Shown in pieces: positions 17,157 to 43,952 of a stretch of DNA of 43,952 nt. Each line of letters opens with the position of its first letter. The stretch's first letter is position 1. Made by a program: the position numbers and the translations under genes. The notes below the pieces were generated by a model. That model saw nothing but the letters and a program-made list of their open reading frames with translations, was not told where the DNA came from and searched no databases. The DNA comes from an uncultured Flavobacteriales bacterium (GTDB lineage Bacteria; Bacteroidota; Bacteroidia; Flavobacteriales_D; Parvicellaceae), in contig CAJWDP010000025.1 in assembly GCA_913030835.1 (NCBI GenBank), positions 1 to 43,952 of the forward strand, read 5' to 3'.

Positions 17157-18188
17157 TTATTTCCATTTATTCATTAACGTATCCCTTTTGACAAACTGAC
17201 GAAGTGCTCTTTCGTTTCTGGAGTCCAATCTAAGGCCTTTGTCTCTGCTTCCAAATACTGCAAACTGAAGATACCGATTTGGATGATCCTGTATGTTTTC
17301 AACCAAGGTTGTTGCCTGATCGAGCATCAGGTTTACGTTGTTGTACATGGTACTGTCATTCAGTAACTGACTCAACGTACCGTCCCCATTGTTGATCGCA
17401 TCCAATACCATATTTACCTGTGCTATTGCATTTTGAGCCTCACCAACTGTTCCTGCAAAATCAACCATAGCCAAACTGTCGGTAATCATCTCAGCGTTAG
17501 CAATGACATTCGTAATGGCTTCATTGCTCTTTTTCAAATTATCCGTAATACTTGCGACATTTGAAAAAATAATGGACACTCTGGATGATTGTCTGGCTAT
17601 CAGTGTGTCGAGTCTGTTTGACATCGATTCAAAAGAACCAATCGCATTTCTAAGGCCGACAAAACTCTCGTTCAGATTACCCGTATTTTCTCCAATAATC
17701 GTTTTGACGGTTTCCACCGTGGTATCGATTGTTGCAATAAGCTCTTCCGTTTTGAGTTTCAAAGGCAACAGCTGTTCGTTCACCATGTCATTCAGATCCG
17801 TCTGAGACTGAGCCAGAATAAAATCCCCACTTTCCAGCATTCTACTGTCCGAACCGAGTCGGAGATCGATGGATTTATTACCTAAAATGTCTGATGCTAA
17901 AATGGCTACAGAATTACTTGGGACATTTATAGATGGATCCTCAATAATGAATGTTACATCAATCAAACTCGGATCGTCCTCGTTGATCGAAAGGTTTGTC
18001 ACCACCCCAACCTGGTATCCACTTATTTTTATCGGACTCGCATTAACCAACCCTTCCACACTCTGATAGGTCGTGTGAAAAGAACGGTTATTCGATAACA
18101 GATTCTCACCTTTCAGATAAAAAAATCCAAAGATTAGCGCTCCAACCGCGGTTATAGCTACAATGCCAATTAATAATTCTCGTTTCAC
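17157..18188 (-). CDS. MlaD/MCE-domain lipid transport protein
   Basis: The 343-residue protein has one N-terminal membrane anchor (about residues 5-25), a single MCE domain (about 36-115, including VNASPIKISGYQVGVV and ILASDILGNKSIDL), and a long helical C-terminal region rich in hydrophobic heptads. MCE proteins form hexameric rings that carry phospholipids between the inner and outer membranes. The start is a GTG overlapping the amidase stop (GTGA), so it is translationally coupled to the amidase. No MlaE permease or MlaF ATPase gene is present in this window and these must be elsewhere. Confidence 0.9.
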   Translation of the reverse strand: MKRELLIGIVAITAVGALIFGFFYLKGENLLSNNRSFHTTYQSVEGLVNASPIKISGYQVGVVTNLSINEDDPSLIDVTFIIEDPSINVPSNSVAILASDILGNKSIDLRLGSDSRMLESGDFILAQSQTDLNDMVNEQLLPLKLKTEELIATIDTTVETVKTIIGENTGNLNESFVGLRNAIGSFESMSNRLDTLIARQSSRVSIIFSNVASITDNLKKSNEAITNVIANAEMITDSLAMVDFAGTVGEAQNAIAQVNMVLDAINNGDGTLSQLLNDSTMYNNVNLMLDQATTLVENIQDHPNRYLQFAVFGSRDKGLRLDSRNERALRQFVKRDTLMNKWK

Positions 18189-19375
18189 TGTGAATTTTCT
18201 TTAGTTCTCCTTACCCCTTCTTGAACGGTAATTTTTTCTCCATTGTAATAGGCAACGATAAAAGCTGAATCAAACCCGATATTCCTTACATCTTTTTGCC
18301 TTGATTTAGCTTCTTCAAAGGTAAAAAAGTTTCCTACAGTATATTTATATATCCCGTTTAACTGATGCTGCTCTACATCATTTAGTCCTTTAAAATTAGC
18401 TGCGATTGTAGGTATGGAAACGGATGAAGCGGAAATTTGCACTTTAAAAACAACTTGTTCTTTGTTCTCCGGCACCACCTTTACTTCCGGTTTTTCTTCA
18501 TGAACAATTTCTTTTACCTGTTCTTTTTGCTCTTCTTTTTCTGAAATTGAATGGTTCACACCATCGATCTGGTCTTTGTATTTCTTGAATCCAATGTAAA
18601 TGCTCTTGGCTAATTCGTCCTGGCCGATTGCACTAGACAGATATTTTTCTTCCTGAGCGTTCGACAAAAAACCCAACTCAATTAAGATGGCGGGCATTGT
18701 AGTGCGATACAGCACCATGAATCCTGCCTGCTTAACTCCACGATCAAATCGTTTGGCGTCATGGACAAAGCTACTTTGAACAGAATTGGCAAAGTTCAGG
18801 CTCTGGTCCAAATACGCATTTTGTCGCATAGCCAACCCGATGTACGCATCCGGATCTTTTGGGTCAAAGTCCTGGTATTTCGAACCATGATCATCTTCCA
18901 TTAAAATTGAAGAGTTTTCTTTTTTCGCTATTTCAAGAGCCGCTGCAGATTTGTGGAGTCCCAACACCCATACTTCTGCACCGGCCGCCTTCTTATTCAC
19001 AGCTGCATTTGCATGTATAGAGACAAATACGTCTGCACTTATAGAATTGGCTTTCTTTGCCCGTTCCGCTAGCCCAATGAACACATCGGTAAAGCGAGTA
19101 TACACCACTTCAATGTTGGGATGTTTTTCTTTTAGCATGTTGCCAAATTTCAATGCGACAGAAAGCGCAACGTCTTTTTCATACGTCTTATTGACCCCGA
19201 TCGCTCCCGGATCTTTCCCTCCATGACCGGGGTCGATCACCACCGTTCTGATTCCAATATTTTCTTGAGACCAGCACGTCCCAAGGGAAACAATTATCAC
19301 AAGAAAAAGCGAAAAAATACGTTTCTTCGCATACAGTATAATCGAGCTATAGCCGTTGGATGTAAACCCTTTCAT
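18185..19375 (-). CDS. N-acetylmuramoyl-L-alanine amidase (Amidase_3)
   Basis: This zinc amidase cleaves the bond between MurNAc and the peptide stem in peptidoglycan. Motifs in order are VVIDPGHGGKDPGA (first zinc histidine), NKTYEKDVALSVAL (zinc glutamate), VFVSIHANA (second histidine) and AILIELGFLSN (catalytic glutamate). A lysine/glutamate-rich linker follows, and the C-terminus (VVFKVQISAS ... YKYTVGNFFTFEEA) looks like a SPOR-type septal peptidoglycan-binding domain. I chose the ATG at 19375, giving 396 residues, because it leaves a signal peptide ending near LGTCWSQ and has an A-rich leader. An ATG at 19411 is possible. A longer reading frame to 19498 starts upstream of the likely promoter and is rejected. 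Confidence 0.92.
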   Translation of the reverse strand: MKGFTSNGYSSIILYAKKRIFSLFLVIIVSLGTCWSQENIGIRTVVIDPGHGGKDPGAIGVNKTYEKDVALSVALKFGNMLKEKHPNIEVVYTRFTDVFIGLAERAKKANSISADVFVSIHANAAVNKKAAGAEVWVLGLHKSAAALEIAKKENSSILMEDDHGSKYQDFDPKDPDAYIGLAMRQNAYLDQSLNFANSVQSSFVHDAKRFDRGVKQAGFMVLYRTTMPAILIELGFLSNAQEEKYLSSAIGQDELAKSIYIGFKKYKDQIDGVNHSISEKEEQKEQVKEIVHEEKPEVKVVPENKEQVVFKVQISASSVSIPTIAANFKGLNDVEQHQLNGIYKYTVGNFFTFEEAKSRQKDVRNIGFDSAFIVAYYNGEKITVQEGVRRTKENSQ

Positions 19376-19382
19376 ATCTTTT
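19356..19382 (+). promoter_or_regulatory. Weak candidate promoter for the LptD-like gene
   Basis: A TTG at 19356-19358 is followed after 16 bases by TATCTTTT at 19375-19382, which matches seven of eight positions of TAnnTTTG if the final G is ignored. The spacing is one base short of the usual range. Transcription would begin around 19387-19389, just before the GTG and TTG candidate starts at 19392 and 19395. Low confidence. Confidence 0.2.
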
Positions 19383-19391
19383 TTCTTCAAG

Positions 19392-21992
19392 GTGTTGTAC
19401 GTATCTAGCATAAAGCGTACCAACAAAAGTAACTTCGTTAACCGTAAAACAAACGGAGGCTTTCTTGTACTTATCCTTGTAATGCTGTTGATAATCAATT
19501 CTTCCTATTCTCAAACGTCAGAGCTGGATTCTAATCAAGTGGACACTGTTGCAGTGAATTTTGATGCTCCTGTAGAATATAACGCAGAAGACTCGATGAT
19601 ATTTGATATTCCCTTGCAACAGGTTTATTTGTTCGGGAAGGCGCACGTCACATATGGTGAAATCCAATTGGACGCAGACTACATCGAATTCAATTTTGAC
19701 ACAAAAACTGCACTAGCAAAATACACACTGGATTCTGTCGGAAAAAAAATCGGAAAACCTCTGTTTATTGAGAGTGGAGACCAATACGAAATGGATAGTA
19801 TTCGTTATAATTTTGACACAAAAAAAGGAATTATATACAACGTTCGAACAGAACAAGCGGAAGGATTTCTGACTTCAGAGGTAGTAAAGAAACAACCCAA
19901 CGATCACGTCCATGTGTCCAAAGGAAAATATACCACCTGTGACCTTGAGGACCCCCACTTTTATTTCAAACTTAGCAAAGCAATCGTCATACCAGATGAC
20001 AAAATTGTATCAGGACCATTGAACTTGTGGATTGCGGATATACCAACTCCTTTAGGGCTTCCATTCGGTTATTTTCCGAATAAAAAAGGAGGAACAAATG
20101 GGATTGTTATTCCCACCTATGGCAATTCTCCTAGCCTCGGTTATTTTCTACAAGGCCTTGGCTATTATCACCATTTTGGTGGTAAATTTGACACACAGCT
20201 GTTGGGAGACATTTACTCCAGAGGAAGCTGGGGACTTAGAAACATCACCCGTTACAAAAAGCGGTATAAATTCAATGGAACATTTAATGTTCAGTATTCG
20301 AATTTGCGAATTTCTGAGCCTGAGTTTCCGGATTACTCAAAGACTTCCCAATTTTTCATTCGCTGGTCTCACAATCAGGATCCGAAAGCTACACCGGGAT
20401 CTCGGTTTACGGCAAATGTAAACCTTGGATCAATCAACAATTTTGAAAACAATTTCAATAGTACAAGCATCGACTATTTATCCAACACATTTAACTCCAA
20501 TGTTCGATGGAGCAAAACATTCAACAATTCGCCATTTACAATGAGTGTCAATCTGCGGCATACGCAAAATACACTAACCGAAATTGTCTCTGTTACATTG
20601 CCGGAAGCCAATATCAATCAAAACAGGATTTACCCTTTAAGAAACATCGGTAGATCAAAAAACAAATTCATCAGAAACCTGACCCAAAATACCGGATTCA
20701 GCCAAAGCTTCGACATCAAAAATGACATCAGCGACTCAGCAAAGAATTTTGCACTGAACAACATTCCGGAACTCACAGAAAACATGAGAAATGGAATGAG
20801 ACACAACGCTAATCTCAACACTTCGGTCAAGCTGGGCCCATTCACCTTGAATCCTGCGGCGAGATACACCGGAAGATACTATTTGCAGTACCTTCAGAAA
20901 ACATATAATGCTTCCGACACTACAGTGACCACAGACACAATCAATAGTCCTAGAGGCGCCCATGAAGCAAGCTTCAGTGCAAATTTGAGCACAAAAATTT
21001 ACGGCATGTATGGATTTGCCGGATTCTTAAAGGGAAAAAGAGATGCCGAGATCAGACACGTTTTGACTCCAAACGTCAATTTTACCTACACACCGAATTT
21101 CAGCACCGACATCGAAGGGAATTTCGGTCCAGAGGGATCAATTGCAACATATTCTCCTTTTGACATCGGGATTTATGGAAAACCAAGCAATACGGAGAGC
21201 GGTGTCGTTTCATTCAGCCTAATCAATGGAATCGACATGAAATTCTGGGATCAGAAAGACACCACAGAGCTGGAAAATAGAAAGAAGAAGAAAGTTAAGC
21301 TCATTGAAAATTTTGTGCTCAGCTCCTCATACGACTTTATGCGAGACTCAATGAACTTATCCAACATTTCATTGACCGGAAGAACCAAGCTTTTTAAGGC
21401 ACTAAACTTAAACTTCAAAGCATTCCTTGACCCCTATTTTTATGACGAAGGAACCAGAATCAATACGTTTCGCGTTAATCAAGATGGCAGGTTGGGAACG
21501 ATTATTTCTACCAATCTTGCACTTGGGTATAATCTAAGAAGCAAGAAGAAGTCAGGCACCAAAAATCTTGATAATGTTTCTGAAGATCAGCAAAGTCAAT
21601 TTGAGTCACTGTCCGATGCCTATGTTGACTTCACCATCCCTTGGCAAATGAATATTTCTTATAACGTTTCAACCTTTCGGTCTGCTATCAACACAGAGGA
21701 TGATACCACGACAATTTCCCAAACCATGCGCTTAAGTGGGGACATTGGACTAACCAAGAAATGGAGAATTGGAATTAATACAGGTTTTGATTTTAGAACC
21801 AAGGAATTCAATTATACCACGGTTTCCATTTATCGCGACATGCATTGTTGGGAAGGTCAATTCAATTGGATTCCGTTTGGAGCAAGAAAAAGCTTTACGC
21901 TTACCATTAACGTAAAAGCTGCCATTTTAAAAGACCTCCGAATTCAGCGAAAAAGAGCCTGGTATGATAATGCATTCGGAGAAGGCCTCTAA
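19392..21992 (+). CDS. lptD: LptD-like outer-membrane LPS assembly protein
   Basis: The 866-residue protein fits the Bacteroidota LptD family. It has a signal segment (FLVLILVMLLIINSSYSQ), then an OstA-type jellyroll (about residues 40-170, for example YLFGKAHVTYGEIQLDADYIEFNFD), a conserved junction (GPLNLWIADIPTPLGLPFGYFP), and a long stretch of alternating strands ending in a beta-barrel. The family inserts lipopolysaccharide into the outer leaflet. The start is uncertain: no ATG precedes the signal peptide, and the first in-frame ATG, at 19482, lies within it. The candidates are GTG 19392 and TTG 19395; a TTG at 19356 would also extend the frame. The start lies between the two candidate starts of the divergent amidase, so the 5' ends of the two genes overlap or nearly overlap. 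Confidence 0.88.
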   Translation: MLYVSSIKRTNKSNFVNRKTNGGFLVLILVMLLIINSSYSQTSELDSNQVDTVAVNFDAPVEYNAEDSMIFDIPLQQVYLFGKAHVTYGEIQLDADYIEFNFDTKTALAKYTLDSVGKKIGKPLFIESGDQYEMDSIRYNFDTKKGIIYNVRTEQAEGFLTSEVVKKQPNDHVHVSKGKYTTCDLEDPHFYFKLSKAIVIPDDKIVSGPLNLWIADIPTPLGLPFGYFPNKKGGTNGIVIPTYGNSPSLGYFLQGLGYYHHFGGKFDTQLLGDIYSRGSWGLRNITRYKKRYKFNGTFNVQYSNLRISEPEFPDYSKTSQFFIRWSHNQDPKATPGSRFTANVNLGSINNFENNFNSTSIDYLSNTFNSNVRWSKTFNNSPFTMSVNLRHTQNTLTEIVSVTLPEANINQNRIYPLRNIGRSKNKFIRNLTQNTGFSQSFDIKNDISDSAKNFALNNIPELTENMRNGMRHNANLNTSVKLGPFTLNPAARYTGRYYLQYLQKTYNASDTTVTTDTINSPRGAHEASFSANLSTKIYGMYGFAGFLKGKRDAEIRHVLTPNVNFTYTPNFSTDIEGNFGPEGSIATYSPFDIGIYGKPSNTESGVVSFSLINGIDMKFWDQKDTTELENRKKKKVKLIENFVLSSSYDFMRDSMNLSNISLTGRTKLFKALNLNFKAFLDPYFYDEGTRINTFRVNQDGRLGTIISTNLALGYNLRSKKKSGTKNLDNVSEDQQSQFESLSDAYVDFTIPWQMNISYNVSTFRSAINTEDDTTTISQTMRLSGDIGLTKKWRIGINTGFDFRTKEFNYTTVSIYRDMHCWEGQFNWIPFGARKSFTLTINVKAAILKDLRIQRKRAWYDNAFGEGL
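19424..19452 (-). promoter_or_regulatory. Bacteroidota-type promoter for the amidase-MCE-FeS operon
   Basis: On the minus strand a TTG (19452-19450) is followed after 18 bases by TACTTTTG (19431-19424). Spacing and both boxes match the TTG-N17-23-TAnnTTTG consensus. Transcription would begin near 19417-19419, which supports an amidase start at 19411 or 19375 rather than farther upstream. The promoter lies inside the first 25 codons of the LptD-like gene. Confidence 0.6.
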
Positions 21993-32656: not shown

Positions 32657-35116
32657 ATGATTGAGGAAGAAATAAGTAAACGGAACGACAGTTTCGAACG
32701 TTACCGGGAACGATTAACCAATTTCAGCAGCGAATTTGAAATTGGGCTTTTCCTGTATTTAACAAGGCAAATCTGGGTTTGGATGCTTCTCATTGTAATT
32801 GTCTGTTTCGGTCTGGGTTTTTTATACATACGATACACCCCGCCTCAATATAAAGCAAAAGCACTCATACAACGAACTTCGCAAGATAATGCCAGAAGGA
32901 TTCTGAACGTTAAGAATCCTTTGCAAGAAGATGAAACACTCACAGGAGATGTAGAGCTGCTGCGATCACCCTTGCTAATGGAGAAAACAGTAGCAAGTTT
33001 ACCGCTCCAAATACGCTATTTTCTCGAAGGAAAAATCTTAAAACACGAAAAATACAATGGGTCGCTATTTTTAGTAGAGGATTTTCAATTGCTCAATTCC
33101 AGTTTGGTTAATGTGCCCATTTATGTACTCTTGAAACCTGATAAAACAATTCACCTGAAGTACACGGTGGATGAAGAAACATTTGAGTTCAACGAATCAT
33201 TAAACGAATCTTTTTCAACGGAACATTTCATTTGTTCGATTCAAATTTCTGATTTGAATCGCTTTTACGCTCAACAAAACGATGGGGAATTCTACTTTCT
33301 ATACAGCGACTTGGAAAAGTTGGCCAGTGAGTTTTCTGCCATGCTGGAAGTGAGTATTGCCAATTCGAATGCCAATACCATTGGTCTCAGCTTTACCCAT
33401 CCAAATCAGGTGCTAACAAAAGATGTACTTGGTGCACTGATCGAGAATTTTGATCAATTCGACAGTATTAAGCGAAGCGAAAGCTCCAATAGAATTGTGG
33501 AGTTCATTGCTATGCAAAAAGACTCGGTATCCAAGAAACTCAAAGAATCCGAAAGAATGCTAAAGGATTTCAAGGACACCAATAAAATAAGGCAAGTTGA
33601 GGGGATGACTGATTCGTATCTGAGCAGAATAGAAGAAATGGAGAGCGAGCTCGTTAAATTGGATGTTGATGAGGAAATCCTCAACGAGATCGCAACCGTC
33701 ATAACCGACAATCCTTTGGAATTGGATATTTACAATGTTTTACCCATTCTAATTGGGTCGGAGTTCGAAAGCAATTTATACACTTTAATTTCCGTGCTTC
33801 ACAAAAAATTAATGCTGTATGAAGATCTGATCTCAGAAAGAACAGCGGATCATGAAGAAATAAAGAAAATCAGATCTCAGATAGATGTTCAAACCAAGCT
33901 CATATCTGAAGGAATTAAGTCGCTGTTAAACAAAACGATGACTCGAAAGGAAACATTAACCGGTAAACTGAACAAAATTGAGTCCAAATTCTACAATCTT
34001 CCTGAAAAAGAACTTGAATATGGTAGGCTAGATCGAATTTTCAACATCAACGATAAGTACTACACACTTCTTCTAGAGAAACAAACAGAATACGCGCTCA
34101 CCAGAGTTGGAATTACTTCTAATACAAATATGCTAAGCCCGCCTAAGATTCCGGAGTACCAAGATAGCCCGAGTAAAAAAATTGTTCTGGCAATCGCCGT
34201 AATTGCGAGCATCTTATTGTGTGTACTAATTTCTATATTCCGTTACCTTGCCCACAATGAAATTACATCGCTAAATGAAATAAGCAGCATTTCAAATGCT
34301 TCCGTTTCTATCCTGGGTATGATTCCCGTTTATAAAAACAAAATTCCTGTTTCTCAAATGATCATCAATCAAAATCCCAAATCTATGATTGCTGAATCAT
34401 TTCGATCCATAAGAACGAATATGGAGTTTGTTTCTTCAAGTTCTGAAAAAACAAAAGTTATTGGTGTAACTTCAACGGTATCAGGGGAAGGAAAAACATT
34501 CGTAGCAATCAATCTCGCCGGTATCATTGCCTTTTCTAATAAGAAAGTAATCGTGCTTGACCTAGATATGAGGAAACCCAAAATTCATCTTGGATTTGGA
34601 GTGGAAAACGTTCGGGGAATGAGCACTTTGTTGATCGGTAAAGAAAAAATCAACAATTGTATCAATACGTCTGAATTGCCCGGACTAGATTTTATTACGG
34701 CAGGACCGATTCCACCCAACCCATCAGAGTTAATTATAAATGGGGAACTTGAAAAGATCATAAGTGAGCTCAAAAAAACATACCATACTATTGTTGTTGA
34801 CAATCCACCCGTTGGGCTGGTTACAGATGGTATAAGCGTTATTAAAAAAGCAGATATTCCAATCTATATCTTCCGTGCGAATTACTCAAAAAAGAACTAC
34901 GTGCAGAATTTGGATCGTTTAATGAATGAACACAAAATATACAAACTATCGGCTGTACTTAACGGAGTGGATACCAGTAGAAAAAGATATGGGTACAATT
35001 ATGGTTACGGATATGGTTACGGGTATGGATATGGGTATGGTTATGGCAACAGCTATTACGAGGAAGGGAATTCAAAAAAATCTACCTTTATAAAGAGGAT
35101 ATTTCGAAAAAAATGA
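32657..35116 (+). CDS. Wzc-like chain-length regulator fused to BY-type tyrosine kinase
   Basis: The 819-residue inner-membrane protein has the Wzc architecture. A Wzz domain is framed by membrane helices at about residues 36-57 and 508-530, with a long periplasmic part containing coiled coils (about 270-460) and a GNVR-like region before the second helix. The cytoplasmic kinase carries Walker A STVSGEGKTF (GKT at 612-614), Walker A' VIVLDLDMRKPK and Walker B VVDNPP. Autophosphorylation of C-terminal tyrosines controls polymer export. The tail at residues 778-801 is unusual: 12 tyrosines in 24 residues, mostly alternating with glycine, followed by a basic end. It overlaps rfbC by four bases. 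Confidence 0.93.
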   Translation: MIEEEISKRNDSFERYRERLTNFSSEFEIGLFLYLTRQIWVWMLLIVIVCFGLGFLYIRYTPPQYKAKALIQRTSQDNARRILNVKNPLQEDETLTGDVELLRSPLLMEKTVASLPLQIRYFLEGKILKHEKYNGSLFLVEDFQLLNSSLVNVPIYVLLKPDKTIHLKYTVDEETFEFNESLNESFSTEHFICSIQISDLNRFYAQQNDGEFYFLYSDLEKLASEFSAMLEVSIANSNANTIGLSFTHPNQVLTKDVLGALIENFDQFDSIKRSESSNRIVEFIAMQKDSVSKKLKESERMLKDFKDTNKIRQVEGMTDSYLSRIEEMESELVKLDVDEEILNEIATVITDNPLELDIYNVLPILIGSEFESNLYTLISVLHKKLMLYEDLISERTADHEEIKKIRSQIDVQTKLISEGIKSLLNKTMTRKETLTGKLNKIESKFYNLPEKELEYGRLDRIFNINDKYYTLLLEKQTEYALTRVGITSNTNMLSPPKIPEYQDSPSKKIVLAIAVIASILLCVLISIFRYLAHNEITSLNEISSISNASVSILGMIPVYKNKIPVSQMIINQNPKSMIAESFRSIRTNMEFVSSSSEKTKVIGVTSTVSGEGKTFVAINLAGIIAFSNKKVIVLDLDMRKPKIHLGFGVENVRGMSTLLIGKEKINNCINTSELPGLDFITAGPIPPNPSELIINGELEKIISELKKTYHTIVVDNPPVGLVTDGISVIKKADIPIYIFRANYSKKNYVQNLDRLMNEHKIYKLSAVLNGVDTSRKRYGYNYGYGYGYGYGYGYGYGNSYYEEGNSKKSTFIKRIFRKK
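34988..35059 (+). repeat. Tyr-Gly dipeptide-coding tandem repeat in the Wzc-like tail
   Basis: A run of TAT/TAC codons alternating with GGN codons, 72 bases long, encodes 12 tyrosines within 24 residues. Codons vary (TAT or TAC; GGT, GGA, GGG, GGC), so the repeat is kept at the protein level and is not a perfect DNA repeat, although hexamer slippage is still possible. Confidence 0.9.
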
Positions 35117-41321: not shown

Positions 41322-41413
41322 TATCAAGTTAAAATTTACCATTCAAAATTTTATCTTAGATTTAAGCAATGCATGAATATCAACAACACGTTGACCAAAA
41401 TTCTTATTTCGTT

Positions 41414-42754
41414 ATGCTAAAAATAACCCTGACCTCCATATCGATTATTCTTATTTCGTATCTAAATAACAGCGTATATGCTCAATACGGATTTGACGAC
41501 GACTATTCCGGAAAAACAGATCTATTGTCCGTTGGAGGTGGAATCGGTGTACTCTCTTTTATGGGTGACCTTTCAAAAGACAATAAACTGACCAAATACA
41601 CCAACATTAAAACCGGAATAGCATTAAGTGCGGAAAAGAGATTTGGCTCTGTATTTGGAGCACAGCTAAATGGCATGTTCGGTTCAATTGCCTACAATGA
41701 AATTTCAAGAGACGTAACTAAAAATAGAAATTTTGAATCCAGCTTATTTACCGTTTCACTGAATGCGATGGTGAATTTGGACAATGATGTTATTCTGAAG
41801 CGAAACTCCACTTTTTCACCCTATTTTGGATTGGGTGTAGGCATGACAAAATTCGACCCTTTTGGGGATCAAAAAGATGCAAACGGAACTACGTACCACT
41901 TTTGGGAAGACGGAAGCATACGAGATCAGGCGGAAGGGAGCTCCGGAGCCAGCTCAGCCAACATTATATTCAGAGATTACAGCTATGAAACACAGCTTGT
42001 AGATTCAGTAACTAACTACAAACGAAGTGCTCTTTTCATACCGCTAACTTTTGGTTTGAAATGGAAATTTAGCCCTAAAGTTCAAGCGAGAATTTATGCT
42101 TCATATAATTTGGTTCAGAGCGATTGGATGGATAACGTCGCAGAAAATAACAACAACGACAAGTTTCTATACACCGCATTTTCGATTCATTACACAATAA
42201 AGAAAAAAGATCCTGATAAAATATCATACAGAGATATAGACATCAAAGCCATGGACAATTCAGATTCAGACGGGGACGGTGTGAAGGATATTAATGACTA
42301 CTGCCAGGGAACACCAAAAGGAATAAAAGTAACCGAAAAAGGATGTCCTTTAGATTCTGACAATGATGGAATAGCAGACTATTTAGACAAAGAACCTAAG
42401 TCTGAAGCCGGCGCTTTAGTCGACGAAAACGGTGTTACACTTTCAGATGATATGATCACTAATAGATATACTGATTATCAGGATAGTATAATTGAGGAGC
42501 GCGTTGTGGTAATCTCGGATGCGTCGTCGGTTGACGAACTTCAAAGTATTGAAACAAAAATTCAAAACAGAATCAATGAGTCGCGAAAATCTCAAAGCAA
42601 TATTCCGGAACATTTAGTAGACGCTGATGCCAACCAGGATGGATTTATTTCCGCAAATGAAATTTCTTTGGTCATTGATGGATTTTTTGAAGGAACCAAT
42701 GATTTCACCGTTCAAGCAATTCATGATTTAATCAATTACTTCTTTGAACAGTAA
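41414..42754 (+). CDS. Outer-membrane beta-barrel protein with TSP3 repeats and C-terminal EF-hand
   Basis: I chose ATG 41414 (446 residues) because it gives a clean signal peptide ending near NNSVYAQ; an ATG at 41369 adds 15 hydrophilic residues. After the signal, about 240 residues of alternating strands (VGGGIGVLSFMGDLS, FSPYFGLGVGMTKFD, YKRSALFIPLTFGLKWKF, RIYASYNLVQSDW) look like an eight-stranded barrel. Then come two thrombospondin type-3 calcium repeats (DSDGDGVKDINDYCQGTP and DSDNDGIADYLDKEP, about residues 283-330). The C-terminal region ends with a canonical EF-hand loop at residues 405-416, with Asp405, Asn407, Asp409, Gly410, Ile412 and Glu416. No OmpA peptidoglycan-binding domain is present, although TSP3 repeats often precede one. 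Confidence 0.82.
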   Translation: MLKITLTSISIILISYLNNSVYAQYGFDDDYSGKTDLLSVGGGIGVLSFMGDLSKDNKLTKYTNIKTGIALSAEKRFGSVFGAQLNGMFGSIAYNEISRDVTKNRNFESSLFTVSLNAMVNLDNDVILKRNSTFSPYFGLGVGMTKFDPFGDQKDANGTTYHFWEDGSIRDQAEGSSGASSANIIFRDYSYETQLVDSVTNYKRSALFIPLTFGLKWKFSPKVQARIYASYNLVQSDWMDNVAENNNNDKFLYTAFSIHYTIKKKDPDKISYRDIDIKAMDNSDSDGDGVKDINDYCQGTPKGIKVTEKGCPLDSDNDGIADYLDKEPKSEAGALVDENGVTLSDDMITNRYTDYQDSIIEERVVVISDASSVDELQSIETKIQNRINESRKSQSNIPEHLVDADANQDGFISANEISLVIDGFFEGTNDFTVQAIHDLINYFFEQ

Positions 42755-42927: not shown

Positions 42928-43952
42928 ATGCTGAAGTCTGCGTTACTATTAATCAACATAATCGGATTCATTTTATTCCCATTCCTTTATATACAAGATG
43001 TTTCTGTCGATCACAAACTTCCTAGCCAAATTAATGCTGGAGACGATGTTATTGTTGAATTAGTATTGAGCAAACCCAACGTCTCTGGGCCAGCCAGACT
43101 TAAGCTGGATTTCTCCAATGCTCCAAACCTAACAGCAACGGAATTGGAAAGTGCAGGAGCATCCTTTACGTTCAAAGATAACGCTGCGTTATTCATTTGG
43201 TATTCCATCCCTGCCGACGAAGCGATCTCTTTGAAATACAAACTGTCTGCTGCAGAGGGGACCTCAGGCGCCCAGTCTATCTTAGGTTCTTTCAGTTTTG
43301 TTGATGGAAACGATAGAAGAAAAGTTGAAATACCGGTTTCCGTTATTGACATTAAAGGAGAAGAATTATCTTCCAATACGAACGATGAAGTAGTTGTAAT
43401 AGATTCAAATGAGGGAGCGGATTCCACAGAGAATATTCCGACTGTCACAGCGTCAAGAACAATTGAGGCGAGTGAAGATGATTTCTTAGTGACAGTGAAC
43501 ATAGATAAAAGCAATGGAGAAGGATTTGCAAGACTAAAAGAAGTAGTTCCGAATGGATTTTCAGCTGAAAGTGTTGACGCAGCCGGAGCTGTCTTTAGCT
43601 ACAAAGATAACATTGCAAAATTTTTGTGGTCCAGTATTTCCACTGATAATCCTGTAGTTGTTTCTTACAAACTTATACCTGAAGAGCCAACAGAACGAGG
43701 CACTTATGCCGTAGAGGGGTCATTCTCCGCAGAGTTTATGGTGGTTGATGACGTTCCAATCAAGGCCGCTGTCCCCATGACGTCCTTTATCTTCGAAAAA
43801 GGAAGCCTTGCATCAAACGAAAGCACAGATACTACTACAGACAATACTACTACAGACAATACTACTACAGACAATACTACTACAGACAATACGACTACAG
43901 ACAATACGACTACAGACAATACGACTACCGACAACACAACTTCGGACAATAC
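42928..43952 (+). CDS. Secreted or anchored protein with duplicated domain and TTTDN repeat (partial, runs off the right edge)
   Basis: The frame opens at ATG 42928 and stays open to the window end (341 codons). Residues 4-21 are hydrophobic (signal or anchor). Two related domains of about 100 residues follow, at about 37-136 and 180-283. They align through ARLKLDFSNAPNLTATELES with ARLKEVVPNGFSAESVDAAG, FTFKDNAALFIWYSI with FSYKDNIAKFLWSSI, and the closing strands. A polar linker (residues 142-175) separates them. From residue 302 the protein becomes a run of TTTDN pentapeptides. I recall similar GFARL...W domains in Bacteroidota envelope proteins but cannot name a family. The real C-terminal domain is outside the window. 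Minus-strand frames here are shadows of this gene. Confidence 0.82.
   Translation, partial: MLKSALLLINIIGFILFPFLYIQDVSVDHKLPSQINAGDDVIVELVLSKPNVSGPARLKLDFSNAPNLTATELESAGASFTFKDNAALFIWYSIPADEAISLKYKLSAAEGTSGAQSILGSFSFVDGNDRRKVEIPVSVIDIKGEELSSNTNDEVVVIDSNEGADSTENIPTVTASRTIEASEDDFLVTVNIDKSNGEGFARLKEVVPNGFSAESVDAAGAVFSYKDNIAKFLWSSISTDNPVVVSYKLIPEEPTERGTYAVEGSFSAEFMVVDDVPIKAAVPMTSFIFEKGSLASNESTDTTTDNTTTDNTTTDNTTTDNTTTDNTTTDNTTTDNTTSDN
43831..43952 (+). repeat. 15-base in-frame tandem repeat encoding TTTDN
   Basis: Eight units of 15 bases fit between 43831 and 43950, each encoding Thr-Thr-Thr-Asp-Asn, with the last reading Thr-Thr-Ser-Asp-Asn, and the array continues off the edge. Units 1-4 are identical (ACTACTACAGACAAT), units 5-6 differ only by ACG for the first codon, and units 7-8 carry further changes. 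The gradient suggests recent duplication of the upstream units. Because the unit is a multiple of three, slippage changes protein length and not frame. Confidence 0.92.

Follow-up and report, generated by a model that had tools for sequence, protein, structure and literature searches.

What kind of protein is encoded by the gene that runs off the right-hand end of this DNA, and what is the threonine-rich repeat at its broken end doing there? The window (the whole stretch of 43,952 nucleotides that was analyzed) ends within a plus-strand open reading frame, 42928..43952, which starts with an ATG at 42928 and reaches the edge after 341 codons without a stop. A sequence-only reading had described a tandemly duplicated domain followed by an array of TTTDN units. 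We have followed the gene beyond the edge, collected its relatives, and asked how its parts are built and where in the cell they would lie.

Probable Continuation of the Gene beyond the Window

Because the window spans the whole of one contig (C25 of the genome G000, 3.14 Mb in 86 contigs), the gene is cut at an assembly end. When the DNA of this region was compared with its own genome, the matches were C25 itself and two overlapping stretches in the first 225 bases of contig C28. A degenerate pattern for the array gave 19 matches in the same genome, all of them forward: 6 lie where C25 ends on the right and 13 where C28 begins on the left. A control pattern gave none. The part of the gene assigned to C28 occupies bases 2-538 of that contig, outside the window, and consists of 15 further units, a domain of ~100 residues, and a stop codon ending at 538, so that the terminal domain predicted to lie just beyond the window is indeed found there. 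This domain is 84% identical to the last domain of an intact relative, L034 (the same sequence as L005), a gene of 426 residues from the same-genus genome G002. The intact gene has the domain order of C25 and C28 taken together, with four degenerate units in its array, and is 65% identical to the N-terminal part of the window protein; G001, the other same-genus genome, gave no match to that part. On the strength of these comparisons of sequence, we take the sequences on C25 and C28 to belong to a single gene, split between the contigs.

In three other genomes the gene is again interrupted close to or at the end of a contig: G005 (C7/C6), G012 (C109/C281), and G019 (C104). In G005 and G012 the C-terminal part is located on a different contig, and at locus L006 the reading passes into foreign-looking sequence.

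A Conserved Family in Bacteroidota

The protein is an envelope protein of bacteria that is conserved but carries no name, and its relatives in Bacteroidota have a common order of N-terminal helix, two Ig-like domains, spacer, and SPOR domain. Its N-terminal part was matched in 29 of 40 related genomes. At the 28 loci L005-L032, the C-terminal domain lies in the same reading frame in 24 (21 with the exact motif and 3 with a variant recognized by eye) and in a shifted frame in L011, and the reading of L006, L008, and L023 reaches the contig end first. A scan of species genomes gave 388 stretches encoding relatives, the best 80 of which were kept, mostly from Flavobacteriales or other Bacteroidota, with Perlabentimonas gracilis as a named strain among them. 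An ORF was recovered by the C-terminal motif at 58 of these 80 loci, the other 22 failing the motif or the ORF rule. Fifty-two of the 58 were aligned with the window protein (53 members), and the same 52 served as the set of relatives below; those left out were L080 and L089, where the start was chosen late, and L091, L101, L108, and L112, which were judged similar to others. In the phylum sample the family profile matched 23 of 296 genomes, over its whole length only in G000, where it is split, and G032, the remaining matches falling in the C-terminal part (20) or the second Ig part (1). In the order sample 222 of 245 genomes matched at E 0.001, many, among the matches listed, by the C-terminal part only.

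Two Ig-like Domains from an Old Duplication

When the window protein is aligned with itself, half against half, the score is 143, where 500 shuffles average 29.7 (SD 5.7, maximum 57) (z ∼20), which bears out the duplication that had been placed at about residues 37-136 and 180-283. The AlphaFold model of L034 (mean pLDDT 85.8, pTM 0.42) has a helix at residues 2-20, two β-sandwiches, and a folded C terminus, with low confidence at 148-163 and 294-331. The sandwiches set the boundaries of the copies at about residues 26-143 (43003..43356, plus strand) and, for the homologous second domain, about residues 173-289 (43444..43794, plus strand). Both resemble many Ig-like domains in the PDB (best Z 13.2 over 118 residues, rmsd 2.5), with adhesin and pilin domains among the best matches, a likeness that tells little of their function. 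In a midpoint-rooted tree the two copies separate fully, for 106 of 106 sequences with a support of 0.645, so the duplication predates these proteins. An apparent third copy was seen by eye in L027. Besides the SPOR matches given below, Pfam gave the 53 members weak Ig-like names (bMG10 in 18, DUF11 in 14) and, for them and the window piece, no single family covering the whole protein; NCBIfam and PHROGs gave no match for the intact L034.

The C-terminal Domain Is SPOR-like

Because Ig-like matches filled the fold search with the whole L034 model, the C-terminal domain was modeled separately and used as a query of its own. Its model (pLDDT 90.5) has strands at 6-15, 34-39, 42-50, and 72-77 and helices at 21-28 and 53-62, giving the four-stranded sheet with two flanking helices of the RNP-type fold expected of a SPOR domain, and an extra C-terminal helix at 84-91. 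Foldseek ranked the SPOR domain of CwlC first (E 0.011, probability 1.00) and DedD third (E 0.042), with no match reaching E 0.001. In VIA-align all Z values were below 8, the top row (Z 7.8, rmsd 4.0) being an unrelated exported protein, followed among SPOR domains by CwlC (Z 7.5, 75 residues, rmsd 2.7), RlpA (6.0), DamX (5.6), and DedD (4.7); RNA-binding proteins appear from Z 4.6 down, with the FtsN SPOR domain at 3.5 among the RRM rows.

Two other proteins of this genome carry the same kind of domain. By hhalign, the domain aligns with repeats 2 and 3 of the barrel-SPOR protein encoded downstream at probabilities of 97.7 and 98.3% and with repeat 1 at only 11.9%, in comparisons where the neighbor's side was an alignment of two sequences only; repeat 2 is itself recognized as SPOR by Pfam at 8.9e-10. 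A probability of 98.1% was obtained with the C terminus of an Amidase_3 protein in the window (18185..19498, minus strand, E 1.8e-52), which at about 18197-18463 bears the same SPOR-like subtype and is a candidate maker of the ligand; Pfam itself makes no SPOR call on that C terminus. For the family, Pfam SPOR (PF05036) matched 4 of the 53 members at E 0.1, L113 alone (23.1 bits) lying above the gathering score of 21 bits, with no match to the C28 piece at E 1 and none to L034. Searches of PDB sequences turned up RRM proteins only; with the profile of the domain these were chains of RNA-binding protein 8A (E 0.0013) and a fly homologue, and SPOR entries were absent up to E 10.

The glutamine of a VQ motif is invariant in all 52 aligned rows, and through the VQxxA motif and its place on strand 1, rather than by superposition, we equate it with the conserved strand 1 glutamine of SPOR domains, Gln-270 of RlpA, which contacts the glycan (PMC6895207). 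The family has its own subtype of the domain, with a long conserved tail (GPFVTAYNxGeRITVQEAL). Because the predicted fold, the presence of SPOR domains among the best PDB matches, the invariant glutamine, and the occurrence of the same domain on the amidase of the window agree, we regard the domain, with good confidence, as SPOR-like and predict that it binds peptidoglycan.

The Repeat Array Lies in a Variable Spacer

Between the second Ig-like domain and the window edge lies a low-complexity spacer (43795..43952, plus strand), disordered in the L034 model at residues 294-331 of that protein, which agrees with the view of the array as an extended linker. It holds eight 15-base units of the TTTDN type (43831..43950, plus strand; TRF score 192) ahead of those on C28. 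Comparison of the units showed that 1 to 4 are identical in DNA, as had been noticed from the letters alone, that 5 and 6 are identical to each other, and that unit 8 reads TTSDN. In the 52 relatives, drawn from the best 80 of 388 stretches, the linker before the SPOR domain measures 34-114 residues and the spacer between the Ig-like domains 8-118, with folded domains of 114-123 (first Ig), 112-120 (second Ig), and 92-95 residues (SPOR). The composition of the linker also varies, being often rich in Glu, Pro, Ala, or Lys. TRF found tandem arrays in the linker of 7 of the 52 relatives, in the inter-Ig spacer of 5, in the second Ig-like domain of 1, and in none for the first Ig-like domain, the SPOR domain, or the helix, several of these arrays being short and close to the score threshold. 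The clearest arrays have units of EETA (21.8 copies), of a TNPV type, and of a QE type. Within the genus g2, G011 has ∼21 EETA units and G018 has units of an AEEVV type, and G003 has ∼8 EETA units that are out of frame, with the reading frames broken.

Judged from these sequences, different arrays seem to have arisen independently in the linker, as is expected of a spacer that tolerates changes of sequence, and the repeat stretch has the look of a flexible linker that changes fast and joins folded parts. The suggestion of a length-variable protein is sustained in so far as repeat content differs between species, from the four degenerate units in G002 to the arrays of genus g2. A second short tandem repeat in the window (34986-35046) encodes a stretch rich in Gly and Tyr close to the C terminus of an 819-residue protein (32657-35116), which looks like a polysaccharide-export tyrosine kinase.

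The array had also been thought possibly glycosylated. In Bacteroidota O-glycosylation, as described in PMC12871550, the target Ser or Thr nearly always has an Asp before it. This pair occurs once in the array, at its start (Asp-301-Thr-302), and is absent from all later units on C25 and C28; because the rule holds at the array start only, glycosylation of the array is unlikely.

The N-terminal Helix and the Location of the Protein

Residues 2-20 (42931..42987, plus strand; helical in the L034 model, where the numbering is the same) form a hydrophobic segment that may be a signal anchor or a signal peptide. None of the 53 members has a Cys in its first 40 residues, so a lipoprotein is unlikely. 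In 28 of 53, small residues usable by signal peptidase stand at a possible cleavage site, and the helix may therefore be removed. Permissively counted, a Q-rule-like site (PMC10653852) occurs in 9 of 53 members of the Ig-SPOR family (6 of 53 by a strict count), whereas the two barrel neighbors have one in 31 of 34 and in 50 of 58 cases; start codons were allowed within 45 residues for the neighbors and within 20 for the family; a lytic transglycosylase neighbor, taken as a further comparison, has 1 in 19. The rarity of Q-rule-like sites in the family favors an uncleaved anchor without settling the matter, given the 28 members with residues usable by the peptidase. Most likely, this is an envelope protein anchored in the inner membrane and gripping the cell wall. 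A surface location is not supported, because the C-terminal domain is of the peptidoglycan-binding type; the proposed stalk survives, probably as a periplasmic spacer rather than as a glycosylated structure at the surface.

Gene Neighborhood

Upstream lies a gene for a PorG-like barrel with TSP3-like repeats (41369..42754, plus strand), a homologue of which precedes the family gene at 31 of 78 loci. A barrel-SPOR gene follows at 57 of the 69 loci with enough flank, uvrA lies upstream at 43 of 58, and a TIGR00730 gene does so at 45 of 73, all among the best 80 of 388 stretches; the gene-order strings were disturbed by long antisense ORFs, and the neighbors were therefore taken from a separate count. 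The genome's own two barrels score 42 and 48 bits against PorG (NCBIfam NF052316), below its cut-off of 130 bits, and a PorG above the cut-off (158 bits) lies on contig C4. From gene order, a shared role of the Ig-SPOR protein and its barrel neighbors is plausible.

L094 has two adjacent copies of the Ig-SPOR gene, both of full-length size (444 and 434 residues), with a barrel-SPOR gene after them, and at L055 and L099 a tandem pair of barrel-TSP3-like genes lies upstream. The next genes on C28 (BatA-like and pyrC-like) were considered as a family feature and discarded, each being found at 0 of 59 loci. Elsewhere in the genome (L132; C5, 6147-12782, minus strand), a protein of 2211 residues has SPOR-like repeats near its C terminus and a weak PorE/CHU_0125-like stretch and is encoded near a PorP/SprF gene, and similar very long domain-bearing ORFs occur in other genomes of the order.

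Discussion

Computation gives the domain order, the predicted fold, the family, the array, and the variability of the spacer between species. These are best explained, with a probability of roughly three in four, by a periplasmic SPOR-domain protein that consists of a helix anchor, two Ig-like domains, a length-tolerant spacer bearing the array, and a glycan-binding SPOR domain. The N-terminal helix would probably hold the protein in the inner membrane, with the two Ig-like domains in the periplasm, followed by the disordered spacer with its TTTDN units. The SPOR domain is predicted to bind the glycan strands of peptidoglycan, and its likeliest targets would be strands stripped of peptides by amidases such as that at 18185-19498, perhaps at the division septum. 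By its presumed mutational process the array would lengthen or shorten by 15-base units with the frame kept and so alter the reach between the Ig-like domains and the wall. The job of the Ig pair is perhaps to bind partners, which might include the neighboring PorG-like barrels.

This layout has precedents. SPOR proteins mostly have a small SPOR domain linked by a disordered or low-complexity region to an N-terminal membrane anchor (PMC6895207), and the periplasmic part of DedD is a disordered region and then SPOR (PMC7642682). The bitopic FtsN, DedD, and DamX of Escherichia coli share with the present protein an N-terminal membrane segment, which is probable here, a disordered or low-complexity region, and a C-terminal SPOR domain (PMC7642682, PMC6895207), and DamX and DedD are among the VIA-align matches of the modeled domain, FtsN weakly so. 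Unlike them, the protein here has two Ig-like domains before the spacer, a tandem array within it, and a SPOR domain with a long conserved tail. The closest precedent found is ARP (tp0433) of Treponema pallidum, which combines a SPOR domain at the C terminus with tandem repeats that differ in unit number from strain to strain (PMC9531955). The likeness is one of description, and ARP differs in its 60-base acidic repeats, its phylum, and the lack of an Ig pair in the description consulted. Amidases of the CwlC type also end in a peptidoglycan-binding SPOR domain, that of CwlC being the first Foldseek match, and the Amidase_3 protein of the window bears the same subtype as the C28 piece; however, an enzyme replaces the Ig-like domains in such proteins, which are not anchor proteins. 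In the literature searched, we found no paper on this Ig-Ig-spacer-SPOR protein and no description of its combined features, in which a SPOR domain of this subtype goes together, in many Bacteroidota, with an old pair of Ig-like copies and spacers that bear arrays.

Several other explanations have to be set against this reading. The last 23 bases of C25 recur in C28 at 203-225, shortly before the array ends there, the two contigs have a 53-base stretch in common, and C28 begins with an irregular TTVS. The recurrence may be an overlap, a repeat inside the array, or a sign of two alleles, and the apparent length of the array or the link between the contigs could then be in part a product of assembly, through overlapping ends or two array alleles. 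We think this improbable, given that the array is clean and in frame on each contig alone (8 and 15 units), that L005 carries the gene intact in the same genus with a short degenerate array, and that the ∼21 units of a different repeat in G011 lie inside one contig. The RRM protein found by the PDB profile search and the RRM rows close behind the SPOR rows in VIA-align would fit a C-terminal domain that has some other RNP/RRM-like fold and binds a ligand other than peptidoglycan. That interpretation is very unlikely, since SPOR domains are themselves of the RNP type (PMC6895207) and the domain is common to an amidase and a SPOR protein recognized by Pfam. A surface protein with the Thr-rich array as a glycosylated stalk, as earlier envisaged, draws on the Thr/Asp/Asn-rich repeat and on the adhesin and pilin domains among the Ig-like matches; we regard it as highly unlikely with a SPOR-like domain at the C terminus, no Asp-Ser/Thr past the first residue pair of the array, and relatives whose linkers are often rich in Glu, Pro, Ala, or Lys instead.

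Two further proposals concern the job of the protein rather than its build. It might assist the type IX secretion system or another trans-envelope complex as an accessory component, the Ig-like domains docking on the PorG-like outer-membrane barrels of neighboring genes and the SPOR domain fixing the assembly to the wall, a reading compatible with the anchored periplasmic protein preferred here that would give it a job other than cell division. The barrel genes on either side, the weak matches of both own barrels to PorG, and the 2211-residue C5 protein adjoining a PorP/SprF gene point this way, but both barrels fall far short of the PorG cut-off, reached elsewhere on C4, gene order is neighborhood and not contact, and uvrA and the TIGR00730 gene are frequent neighbors too, without such a role. 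On balance we hold a part in secretion to be possible but doubtful. More speculative, and in our view unlikely, is a wall-tether module in which the inner-membrane Ig-Ig-spacer-SPOR protein and the adjacent outer-membrane barrel-SPOR proteins together keep membranes and wall at a fixed distance, the spacer being a hypervariable ruler tuned by slippage to match the width of the periplasm.

Taking the anchored periplasmic SPOR protein as the preferred reading gives a definite architecture, and a role that can be tested, to an envelope protein that carries no name and has relatives in many genomes of Bacteroidota. Arrays such as the TTTDN array are an example of how a gene comes to be split at a contig end. 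The family also offers a natural set of spacers, varied in length and chemistry and joining the same conserved domains, which would allow one to ask how strongly length matters in envelope proteins that bind the wall.
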